Origin: a bacterium
Lineage (GTDB): Bacteria > JALSQH01
Direction of reading: 5' to 3'
NCBI GenBank assembly: GCA_026985515.1
Contig: JALSQH010000095.1
Location: 1-6,968 of the forward strand
Length of the DNA stretch: 6,968 nt
Numbering within the stretch: the stretch's first letter is position 1; each line of letters starts with the position of its first letter. A program made the translations under genes and the position numbers. This document shows, one piece after another, positions 2,917 to 6,710 of the stretch. The notes beneath the pieces were generated by a model. That model ran no database searches and was not told where the DNA came from. It saw only the letters and a program-made list of their open reading frames with translations.

Positions 2917-4815
2917 CTATGAAGAAATCTCTTTTTCTAATTTTTCAATTTCTTCTCTGACAATTTTTTCGATTGATTTATATATTATTTCAGGGATAAT
3001 TTTTTGCAAGGTGGATGTAACTTTTTCCTCAACAATTGGCGTAATTTTCTCTGCAATATCCATTCCTTCAATGGTACTCTTCAAGAGATTTTCTACCTTT
3101 TCCTGAATGAGAGTGGTTAATTTTTCCTCCGGGATTTGAAGCTCGGTTACTCTTTCAGTTTCAACTTCATGTTTCTCTTCTTCTGATGGTGGCGTGAATT
3201 CACCGTACGCCTCCTCTGCTTCCAGCAGTTCTTCTTCCTCCTCAGAAGGTTGTTCTTCTATCTCCTTTTCCTCCACCGAGAGAAGGGGTTCTCCTGGCGT
3301 GGCAGTTTCTATTTTCTCTTCCACACCTTCTTCAATTCCTTCAGAAACTTCCTCAGGGAGTCTGTCACTGATTACAATTTCCTGTTCCGCAGCGGGTTCC
3401 TCTTTTTCTTCTGTGAAAATTTCCTCCTCTGCGGGGATTTCTTCCGTTATTTCTTCGGCAGGCTGAAGTTCCTCTTCTGCGGCTGACTCTTCAGAAGGGG
3501 ATGTAACTTCTGTTAAATCGTATGGTTCAGCAGACTTCTCCCCCTCCTGAGTTTCCTCAGCTTCCCCTCCAAGGACAGATTCAAGGTCTGATTCAGTTTC
3601 CACAACTGTAATCTCTTCCTTTTCTTCAACATATCTGGAAAGATCCGGCTCTTCCTTCTCCTGAAAGACCTCTTCTCCTGCGGTTTCAGGGGATTCTTCT
3701 GAAGGAGTTGCTTCTTCTGCAATTACTTCTTCGGAGAATGTTTCCTTTTGTTCTTCAGCACCTGAGAGATCTTCATAGGAAGCTTCGGTAGTTTCTTCAA
3801 AGGTTACTTCCTCCGACGTTTCTAATGCTTCAGTGGTTACTTCTTCAGATATTTCCTCTTCCGTTGTAAGAGAAGTTTCTGCAGTTTCACCGGTGAAGCC
3901 CTCCTCAGTTGCTTCTTCAATTTCGCTTATTTCTTCTTCCTGAAATGTTACCTGACCTTCTTCTCCACCTGGTGAGCTGAGACCCTCCAGATCATACTCC
4001 ACTGTTCCTGTTTCTTCCGCTGTTGCTATTTCTGCAGGTGTTTCAAACTGCTCCGGAACGCCTTCTTCTTCCGCAGCTGATTCTACCTCTTCAACTTCCT
4101 GAAGTTCTTCCTCTTCTGTTACTTCTTCAATTTCTTCTAATTCTTCAACAGGCTGAACTGTTTCAGTTTCCTCCGCTTCAGTTACAGGCTCTATTTCTTC
4201 AAGAGTTTCTGATTCACCAACTTCTTCTATTTCTTCTATTTCTTCAACTTCTTCCAGACCATATTCATCCACTGTTTCTCCCGAGGGTTCTGATGTAATT
4301 TCCTCTTCAGGTGGCTGTATCTCTTCAGGGGGGGTAAAGGTTTCCTGTGCAATTGCCTCAGGAGAAAATTCCACTTCTTCGAATGCAGGTTTTTCTTCCC
4401 GGGGTGTGGTTTCTTCTGTGAGCTGAGGTTTTTTTACCTGATCGGGGGGAAGGGCAAGGAGTTCATTGACTTTGTCTATCAGAGCCCTGGTTTCAAAGGG
4501 TTTGGAAATATGGTCGTCAGCACCTACCTTTGCTGCTTTTTCTTCATCAAATGTTTCGAAGGTCCCTGTCAGAAGGAGAACGGGAATGTTTTCAAAACCG
4601 GGTGTGGTCTTTATGGCGTAGGTGAGTTCATAGCCATCCATTCCGGGCATTGTAACATCAGCAATAACCAGATCAGGCTTTATTTCTCTTGCTTTTCTGA
4701 GAGCCTCCTCACCATTATCCACTATCTCAAGTTCATAATTTTCGTCGGCAAATGTTAGAGTGATTAACTTTTGAATTGTAATGCTATCATCTGCCACAAG
4801 GATTTTTTTTGCCAT
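2917..4815 (-). CDS. Response regulator receiver protein with long glutamate-rich linker and C-terminal helical domain
   Basis: 632 residues. Residues 1-120 are a complete CheY-like receiver: acidic pair D9/D10, phosphoacceptor D53 in the loop IADVTMPGMDG, T83 in LLLTGTFE, and K105 in SKPFE. All catalytic residues are present, so it should be phosphorylated by a histidine kinase; none is encoded in this window. Residues about 125-555 are low-complexity and extremely Glu-rich (17 of residues 181-220 are Glu) and presumably disordered. Residues 557-632 are a more ordered amphipathic segment with repeated I/V-x-E-K patterns (EKITPIVEEKV, IIPEIIYKSIEKIVREEI). There is no DNA-binding, HD, GGDEF or kinase output domain. 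The GTFE-type receiver signature resembles, from memory, deltaproteobacterial receiver proteins with acidic tails; their role is not clear to me. The start is firm: a perfect AAGGAGGT at 4828-4821 lies 5 bases before ATG. First gene of the probable receiver-valS-nadC operon; it ends with TAG. Confidence 0.9.
   Translation of the reverse strand: MAKKILVADDSITIQKLITLTFADENYELEIVDNGEEALRKAREIKPDLVIADVTMPGMDGYELTYAIKTTPGFENIPVLLLTGTFETFDEEKAAKVGADDHISKPFETRALIDKVNELLALPPDQVKKPQLTEETTPREEKPAFEEVEFSPEAIAQETFTPPEEIQPPEEEITSEPSGETVDEYGLEEVEEIEEIEEVGESETLEEIEPVTEAEETETVQPVEELEEIEEVTEEEELQEVEEVESAAEEEGVPEQFETPAEIATAEETGTVEYDLEGLSSPGGEEGQVTFQEEEISEIEEATEEGFTGETAETSLTTEEEISEEVTTEALETSEEVTFEETTEASYEDLSGAEEQKETFSEEVIAEEATPSEESPETAGEEVFQEKEEPDLSRYVEEKEEITVVETESDLESVLGGEAEETQEGEKSAEPYDLTEVTSPSEESAAEEELQPAEEITEEIPAEEEIFTEEKEEPAAEQEIVISDRLPEEVSEGIEEGVEEKIETATPGEPLLSVEEKEIEEQPSEEEEELLEAEEAYGEFTPPSEEEKHEVETERVTELQIPEEKLTTLIQEKVENLLKSTIEGMDIAEKITPIVEEKVTSTLQKIIPEIIYKSIEKIVREEIEKLEKEISS
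3151..4443 (-). repeat. Low-complexity Glu-rich coding region (GAA/GAG-biased tract)
   Basis: Codes for residues about 125-555 of the receiver protein. The plus strand appears as long pyrimidine-rich TTC/TCT runs because the minus-strand codons are mostly GAA and GAG with Thr, Val, Ser, Pro and Ile. The strand asymmetry creates long spurious Ser- or Leu-rich open frames on the plus strand here; these are not genes. Boundaries are approximate. Confidence 0.85.
4219..4254 (-). repeat. Four tandem 9-bp units coding for Glu-Glu-Val/Ile
   Basis: On the minus strand the units are GAAGAAGTT, GAAGAAATA, GAAGAAATA, GAAGAAGTT, directly adjacent. They code for residues 188-199 (EEV-EEI-EEI-EEV) of the receiver protein. 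The unit length is a multiple of three, so gain or loss of a copy would keep the frame. It suggests that the acidic linker grew by local slippage or duplication. Confidence 0.85.
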
Positions 4816-5013: not shown

Positions 5014-5556
5014 ATGAAAGGTATTCTTTTGTTAGGAGGGTTTGATTACATAGTGACTCAATTCGGTGAAAAACCGTTAAAAGAGGCACAGAAAAAATGT
5101 CATTTGAGAAAAATGATTCTTCCATTTTCCGATGTAGATGAGGAATCTATTAAATGCTTGATAAATGAACTTTCCATTAATTTAGGTTTATCATCAAAGG
5201 AAATTATGGAGAAAGTCGGTTATTACTGGACTCTTAAAAAAGCACCTGAATTTTACCCTCAATTTTATGAAAAATATAATAGAAGTGTTAGGGAATTTCT
5301 AATAAATCTAAATTATATCCATAAAGTAGTTGTTGAGAATGTCGTTTCATCAAAGAAATTGAATCCGCCAGAATTTGAAGTAATCCGCGAAGAGAAAAAT
5401 TACATTTTACTCAGATATATTTCAAAGAGAAATATGATACATGTTGCTATAGGAGCAATAAAAGGACTTGGACAGTATTTTAAGGAAGATATAAAAGTAG
5501 TAAAACAGTCAGATGACACTATGCTTGTTCATTTCATTCAAAATCTTTCCAGTTAA
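5014..5556 (+). CDS. Stand-alone H-NOX (heme nitric oxide/oxygen binding) sensor protein
   Basis: 180 residues, a full-length single-domain H-NOX. The family binds heme b through a proximal histidine, senses NO, and signals to a kinase, cyclase or chemoreceptor partner in the cytosol. Seen here: the characteristic N-terminus MKG; the proximal ligand H103 in the REFLINLNYIHKVV helix; the conserved NPP turn (117-119); and the propionate-binding YxSxR motif Y135-S137-R139 within LRYISKRNM, followed by a helix and YFKEDI that match Thermoanaerobacter H-NOX closely as I recall it. In that ungapped alignment the distal Tyr140, which stabilises bound O2, corresponds to V144, so the site should be NO-selective rather than O2-binding (inference). 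The start is supported by AAGGAG five bases upstream. No transmembrane or chemoreceptor part. It is followed after 65 bp by a diiron protein gene and then a flavodiiron protein gene, pointing to an NO/O2 response role. The usual effector gene is not adjacent. It is more AT-rich than its neighbours. Confidence 0.93.
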   Translation: MKGILLLGGFDYIVTQFGEKPLKEAQKKCHLRKMILPFSDVDEESIKCLINELSINLGLSSKEIMEKVGYYWTLKKAPEFYPQFYEKYNRSVREFLINLNYIHKVVVENVVSSKKLNPPEFEVIREEKNYILLRYISKRNMIHVAIGAIKGLGQYFKEDIKVVKQSDDTMLVHFIQNLSS

Positions 5557-5621: not shown

Positions 5622-6710
5622 ATGATAAAGAATCTTTTCAAAATTGGAAAGGATTTTTTCCTCTTAAAAAGTGAGGAAAGTGATTTTCACAGAAATATCT
5701 ACTTCAGAGTATTTAGGGGAGAAAAGAGAAATGTGAATATGATTATGGATCCAGGTACCAAACAGGATTTGAATAATATAATTACCGTTTCCAAGGAACT
5801 TTTTGGTGGGATAAACAATCTGGATCTTATTTTTCTCAGTCATCAGGATCCCGACCTGACCTCAATACTTCCATCAATTGTTGCAATTGCTCCAAAGGCG
5901 AAAGTTATTGCTTCTATTGACACATGGAGATTGGTTAAAATGTATGGAGATATAAGCGAGAAGAGATTTGTTGCAATTGAGAACTTCAAAAGTGATGTTC
6001 TCACCATTAAGGCTACTGGTCACAGAGTCAGGTTTGTCTCTGCAATGTACTGTCACTTTCGCGGAGCTATGATGCTGTACGATTATGAAAACAGGATTCT
6101 CTTCAGTGGGGATTTCCTGGGAGGGGTTGACACGAGAAAGGGAGAAGGTGTCTTTGCAGATGAGAGTAGCTGGGATGGTATAAAGATTTTTCATGAAATT
6201 TACATGCCCATTTCCGGAGCGGTTAAGGAAACAATTGATAGAATATCAACTTTAAACCCTTTCCCCGAAATAATAGCTCCGCAGCATGGAGATGTGATAA
6301 AGGGTGATCTTGTGGTAGAGTTTATGAGCAGGTTGTACGACCTAACTGTTGGTTATGATCTAATAAAGAAAGTTGAGCCAGAGAAAGAATTGACTATTGT
6401 AGCAATCAACGACTTTCTTGAACAGCTTAAAGGAGTATCTCCTCAACTTGGTAGAGAACTGATAGATTCTATAAGTTCTGCAGGTAATTTCACTTCACCT
6501 TTTGTTACCAAAGGTGATGCAATAACTGATTTTAAATTACCTTCATCTGATGCTATAAAGGTTTTGTGGGATAAAATCGAACTCCTTGCTCCGCCTGATA
6601 AGGAGAATGAGATAAAAACACTTTTCATTGCCAGTCTTGAACAGTACAATGTACCGCATAAATTTAAGATAGAGGAAAAAATTGAGGAAATTGAAGATTT
6701 GTTTGATTGA
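5622..6710 (+). CDS. MBL-fold diiron protein, ODP (oxygen-binding diiron) type, without flavodoxin domain
   Basis: 362 residues. Residues 1 to about 240 align in pattern with the metallo-beta-lactamase-like domain of flavodiiron proteins (FDP). The ligand positions can be traced: H74-x-D76-x-D78 in LSHQDPD (FDP: H-x-E-x-D-H), H145 in YCHFRG, D164 in LFSGDFLGG, and H222 in APQHGD. The 19-residue step from H145 to D164 equals that in FDPs, and the other steps are within a few residues. All six side chains could bind iron, but the second ligand is Asp instead of Glu, and L79 replaces the His that ends the motif. The C-terminal 118 residues are largely helical and I do not recognise them; no flavodoxin FMN-binding loop is seen, so it probably binds O2 or NO rather than reducing them alone. 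ODP domains elsewhere are sensor modules of chemoreceptors. Strong Shine-Dalgarno AGGAGGTG at 5610-5617, four bases before ATG. Cytosolic. It sits between H-NOX and an FDP gene, 21 bp from the latter. Confidence 0.85.
   Translation: MIKNLFKIGKDFFLLKSEESDFHRNIYFRVFRGEKRNVNMIMDPGTKQDLNNIITVSKELFGGINNLDLIFLSHQDPDLTSILPSIVAIAPKAKVIASIDTWRLVKMYGDISEKRFVAIENFKSDVLTIKATGHRVRFVSAMYCHFRGAMMLYDYENRILFSGDFLGGVDTRKGEGVFADESSWDGIKIFHEIYMPISGAVKETIDRISTLNPFPEIIAPQHGDVIKGDLVVEFMSRLYDLTVGYDLIKKVEPEKELTIVAINDFLEQLKGVSPQLGRELIDSISSAGNFTSPFVTKGDAITDFKLPSSDAIKVLWDKIELLAPPDKENEIKTLFIASLEQYNVPHKFKIEEKIEEIEDLFD

Follow-up and report, generated by a model that had tools for sequence, protein, structure and literature searches.

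The window, a stretch of 6,968 nucleotides, is the entire contig C95 of a bacterial genome that totals 2.36 Mb. Near its end lie a stand-alone H-NOX (haem-NO-binding) gene, an ODP gene whose product carries an additional C-terminal domain (CTD), and the start of a flavodiiron protein (FDP) gene. The coordinates of these genes and of the motifs discussed below are given in Table 1.

Table 1. Genes, domains and motifs in the window (A3, alignment of 76 CTD-bearing ODPs)
Feature	Coordinates	Strand	Details
Stand-alone H-NOX gene	5014..5556	+	65 bp upstream of ODP; PF07700, E 1.1e-29
ODP-CTD open reading frame	5622-6710	+	ATG start, 362 aa, AGGAGG-like ribosome site just upstream
ODP core, residues 1-249	5622..6368	+	Metallo-beta-lactamase fold without flavodoxin; PF19583, phmmer, AlphaFold2, Foldseek
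HQDPDL metal motif (H74, D76, D78; L79 where FDPs have His)	5841..5858	+	HQDPD in both solved ODPs and 76/76 A3 rows
CHFRG motif (C144, candidate ligand H145, R147)	6051..6065	+	Typical of CTD-bearing clade; invariant in A3
D164, putative bridging ligand position	6111..6113	+	Aligned with SGD of solved ODPs
Q221-H222 (PQHG): candidate His ligand and Gln replacing the lost motif-2 His	6282..6287	+	Invariant in A3; SH in FDPs
Unnamed CTD, residues 250-362	6369..6707	+	Predicted helices 244-272, 274-284, 308-322, 328-341; strands 294-297, 300-304
FDP gene start, 79 aa, cut by contig end	6732..6968	+	21 bp downstream of ODP; NCBIfam flavorubredoxin models, E 3.8e-11

The product of the ODP gene matched the Pfam ODP family beta lactamase (PF19583) over residues 36-223 with an E-value of 4e-42 (score 144.7 bits, cut-off 27.2); given this E-value, the resemblance to ODPs is not due to chance. 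In a phmmer search the solved ODPs 6qrq and 6qnm matched with E-values of about 8e-22, in alignments that extended to residue 249-250. The AlphaFold2 model, calculated with 76 sequences, had a pLDDT of 90.7 and a pTM of 0.75. Ranks 1-10 of a Foldseek search were all occupied by ODP chains (6qrq/6qwo/6qnm/6r9n; E-values 4e-19 to 1e-14; TM-scores normalised to the target 0.79-0.83), with FDPs next, and a PDB profile search likewise returned ODPs as the closest solved relatives. Structure prediction and fold comparison thus bear out the ODP-type assignment made in an earlier, sequence-only reading of this DNA. The solved ODPs, from Thermotoga maritima (6qrq/6qwo) and Treponema denticola (6qnm/6r9n), are diiron O2 sensors. 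They are about 26-29 % identical to the window protein over about 250 columns and share with it the metallo-beta-lactamase fold without flavodoxin, the HQDPD motif, and the later His, Asp and Gln-His positions. No flavodoxin domain was found in Pfam searches with the window protein or with residues 245-362 alone. The window protein is a genuine ODP whose metal site is ordinary, and to which an unnamed conserved CTD is added.

Relatives were collected in a one-genome-per-species scan, which used the patterns CHFRGA and ADES-W and returned 115 matching stretches; the best 80 of these were taken as named loci. The metal site was compared across 81 CTD-bearing ODPs, five further ODPs, and a single FDP in a joint alignment. 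The FDPs (ROO, FprA, flavorubredoxin) share the diiron core of metallo-beta-lactamase fold with the window protein; however, the latter lacks the flavodoxin domain, and at the ligand positions it has Asp, Leu, and Gln where FDPs have Glu, His, and Ser, respectively. The sequence-only reading had described the metal motif as altered, and in the joint alignment the HxExDH of FDPs is indeed absent from the window protein, with H-x-D-x-D-L in its place. All non-degenerate ODPs in this alignment follow the pattern H-D-D-V/L/I ... H ... D ... Q-H, whereas the FDP has H-E-D-H ... H ... D ... S-H. An HxDxD followed directly by a residue other than His, together with a Gln preceding the last His, is found in the window protein and in 5/5 ODPs without a CTD, unlike in the FDP. 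A lineage-specific alteration was rejected, as ODPs generally have Asp in place of Glu and Val/Leu in place of His, both in the solved structures and in the joint alignment. H-x-D-x-D is the family signature, the missing His is replaced by Q221, and the metal motif is normal for the ODP family; the new part is the CTD.

According to a review of the superfamily, in ODP a Gln at the PQHG-type motif takes the place of the lost His (PMC7785958). Q221 matches this Gln by alignment position, so that there are seven candidate ligands and not six. Translation and alignment confirmed the six named previously (H74, D76, D78, H145, D164, H222), together with L79, but the seventh position, Ser in FDPs, had been missed. 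Further along the sequence, the His, Asp, and His positions match those of both solved ODPs as well, and all seven positions are intact in the window protein and in 77 further CTD rows of the joint alignment. Judged by sequence, the full putative ODP ligand set (H74/D76/D78/H145/D164/Q221/H222) is present, and in view of the predicted fold and the alignment these residues would converge on one metal site. The CHFRG motif of the window protein corresponds to LHSTG/MHSPG in the solved ODPs, and C144 and R147 differ in the other ODPs of the joint alignment. Their invariance in A3 is partly selected, because CHFRGA served as a search pattern.

The solved ODPs align only to residue 249-250 of the query, so the extension comprises about residues 250-362; they end at about residue 253, whereas the window protein adds a conserved domain of about 113 residues. 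The sequence-only reading had placed about 118 mostly helical residues (245-362) where FDPs have flavodoxin. The absence of flavodoxin stands, but the extension starts at about residue 250 and contains a beta hairpin. AlphaFold2 predicted two helices, the hairpin, and two further helices, mostly with high confidence, followed by a loose tail from about residue 350. The domain had been called unrecognised, in agreement with our finding that residues 245-362 alone had no Pfam match even at an E-value of 5. No Pfam family across the CTD was common to more than 4/76 members (best E-value 5e-4), and the best match to PDB profiles had an E-value of 0.017 and covered only part of a domain. Foldseek found no convincing solved match (best E-value 1.9), although with a pLDDT of 72.5 for the model of the CTD alone this absence of a structural match is weak. 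VIA-align returned mixed helical folds with Z at most 6.9, reflecting only common helical arrangements.

The extension follows PQHG in 80/80 relatives (the best 80 of 115), which come from several phyla, and the CTD region is almost gap-free in a 47-row alignment. The search patterns partly select for the invariance of C144 and R147, but not for the conservation of the CTD. With an HMM built without the window, residues 245-362 scored 48.4 bits (E-value 1.1e-13), compared to 7.2 bits for the best of 2000 shuffles. The possibility that the CTD is a random tail was rejected based on this conservation and on a score far above those of the shuffles. The HMM matched 41 places in 32 genomes. An ODP domain accompanies the CTD in 30/30 checked HMM frames plus five others, and no CTD without an ODP domain was found in these 35 checked frames. 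Phage and plasmid collections contained one match each.

In the phylogeny, a fully supported split divides the CTD clade from three other ODPs; the position of the root is unsettled. The window protein groups with the homologs from loci L025, L026, and L141 at 100/99; its branch is long (1.06), which makes its exact place uncertain. The CTD branch includes Myxococcota, Desulfobulbales with the cable bacteria, Geobacteraceae, Fermentibacterota, and Calditrichota; among the named species with an ODP-CTD gene are Myxococcus xanthus and Trichlorobacter thiogenes. Fusions among the 47 members scanned were to HEAT repeats (7/47), a protein kinase (5/47), and a receiver domain (REC, 1/47). In Desulfobulbales and kin, a separate REC-DUF4388 gene lies directly downstream of the ODP-CTD gene; in locus L005 and in second copies in Calditrichota, REC, DUF4388, ODP, and CTD form a single protein. 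At the Calditrichota loci, REC is encoded two genes upstream and V4R downstream, with genes for histidine kinases in the vicinity, and in the Fermentibacterota loci a CHASE2-cyclase and a GAF-HD protein are encoded upstream. Among 58 immediate neighbors, REC was counted 4 times, DUF4388 4 times, V4R 3 times, and cyclase 2 times. The corresponding list for 58 distal genes contains none of them; as each of the two lists comprises 25 families, a single distal occurrence is possible. Many of the 80 relatives (again the best 80 of 115) have no signalling gene next door.

ODPs outside the CTD clade are fused to GGDEF or cyclase domains. The ODP-GGDEF and ODP-guanylate-cyclase fusions (L007, L011) share with the CTD proteins the combination of an ODP sensor domain with a signalling output; however, in these proteins a different linker leads to a fused enzyme domain as the output, and they have no CHFRG motif. 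A role of the C-terminal module in signalling had been suggested from the sequence. Since response regulators, DUF4388, Ser/Thr kinases, HEAT repeats, and cyclases are fused to relatives or encoded next to them, the CTD most likely couples the gas sensor to these outputs. The T. denticola ODP is an O2 sensor for chemotaxis and is genetically coupled to an MCP homologue (PMC7666581), whereas the CTD clade is linked to REC-DUF4388, kinases, cyclases, or V4R proteins. A short Pseudoalteromonas ODP follows a gene annotated as chemotaxis protein, whose MCP match has an E-value of only 0.028.

We consider it probable that the window protein is a diiron gas sensor of the ODP family, in which residues 250-362 act as a coupling or partner-binding module. 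The iron-loaded core would most likely bind O2, perhaps NO, at the seven candidate ligands. Without flavodoxin it would have no built-in electron source, so that it would hold a state instead of turning a substrate over. The gas adduct would form at the diiron site, and the change would be relayed by the final helix of the core to the CTD, where an output partner would bind; in relatives, the partners would be response-regulator-DUF4388 proteins, Ser/Thr kinases, cyclases, or HEAT proteins. The window protein itself carries no fused output domain, and we infer its iron binding, gas ligand, direction of signalling, and partner. The chances appear evenly balanced for a wider proposal, namely that the CTD marks a separate branch of diiron sensors, that the module links the ODP core to response regulators, kinases, or cyclases and not to chemoreceptors, and that metal-less pseudo-sensors arose from this branch. 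Experimentally, ODP is known from chemotaxis; if the proposal is true, diiron O2/NO sensing extends to two-component, Ser/Thr-kinase, and nucleotide signalling.

The H-NOX upstream keeps the haem His and the YxSxR motif, and in an alignment it has Val at the position of the distal Tyr140 of the solved chemotaxis-type O2-binding bacterial H-NOX. H-NOX proteins without the distal Tyr follow the pattern of the NO-selective members, which assigns this one to the NO type. Downstream, the FDP gene is probably continued on contig C14 (L023 3554-4456, minus strand), with a gap of about 50 bases: this contig encodes a 300-aa fragment that starts about 16 residues further in family numbering and has a flavodoxin domain at its end. 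The clustering of H-NOX, ODP, and FDP suggests a function in O2/NO handling. A conserved H-NOX-ODP-FDP operon was rejected, as the arrangement was not found in relatives: H-NOX had no match in the flanks of the 80 related loci and occurs in only 3/32 related genomes, on other contigs. In the sister genome G001 (80 % complete), H-NOX matched only weakly, and no close ODP was found.

In the product of a divergent REC gene of the window (2917-4815, minus strand), the receiver domain has a tail of about 500 residues that is acidic and rich in Glu. The sister genome likewise has a gene with an acidic tail in front of valS (L162 51-725); the REC gene goes with valS there, and is unlikely to be a dedicated partner of the ODP.

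The neighboring FDP gene raises the possibility, already considered in the sequence-only reading, that the window ODP is an accessory of this FDP, forming a mixed oligomer with it or tuning it, and does not signal to a separate output. FDPs are head-to-tail dimers, which makes a mixed dimer conceivable, and the distance of 21 bp makes co-transcription likely. The neighborhood is not conserved, however: an FDP was found in the flanks of only 1/80 related loci, about 5 kb away, and the fusions in relatives are to signalling domains. We regard this explanation as unlikely. An enzymatic function, as an O2/NO reductase or a peroxidase with an outside electron donor such as rubredoxin, would agree with the fold and with most of the metal ligands, which are shared with the FDP superfamily, but the window protein contains neither a flavodoxin nor a rubredoxin domain, its ligand set is that of the sensor ODPs and not of FDPs, and the fusions of its relatives point to signalling; an enzyme is therefore very unlikely. 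The preference of the earlier reading for an ODP-type sensor over an enzyme is in accord with the nearest solved folds, those of the chemotaxis sensors, and with the signalling fusions and neighbors of relatives.

In some response-regulator fusions of Calditrichota, metal ligands have been lost but the fold is retained. Four REC-DUF4388-ODP-CTD proteins from this phylum (L138 1990-3798; L139 2496-4274, minus strand; L140 2881-4671, minus strand; L142 2088-3830) lack none, one, four, and six of the seven ligands, respectively; the first three share a pterin-gene neighborhood. The degenerate copies have open frames, and they are more alike at codon positions 1 and 2 than at position 3, as under protein-level constraint. 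These ligand-poor copies are possible pseudo-sensors, and the REC-fused copies with and without ligands offer a natural experiment on the role of the metal. They would also fit ODP-CTD being mainly a protein-binding scaffold in which metal binding is dispensable, but with the ligand positions kept in the window protein and the 77 further CTD rows, this is more improbable still. A weak Pfam match to Lactamase_B (E-value 7e-4) might indicate a zinc hydrolase, belonging to the metallo-beta-lactamase superfamily at large, but this can hardly be the case for the window ODP, given that the HxHxDH motif is absent from the protein, that the ligand set is the acidic one of ODPs, and that the ODP family match is far stronger.

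The genome of the window encodes a second stand-alone H-NOX (L150 575-1658), directly followed by a DUF4416 gene. A Coatesbacteria genome carries four H-NOX genes in tandem (G084:C202 6238-8590), its ODP-CTD gene being on another contig. In Calditrichota, V4R-domain proteins are encoded after ODP-CTD (L057 3327-4550, L079 3234-4451, L085 8832-10040). V4R and H-NOX are members of a single structural superfamily, and the V4R next to ODP-CTD in Calditrichota may be a counterpart of the H-NOX next to the window ODP.
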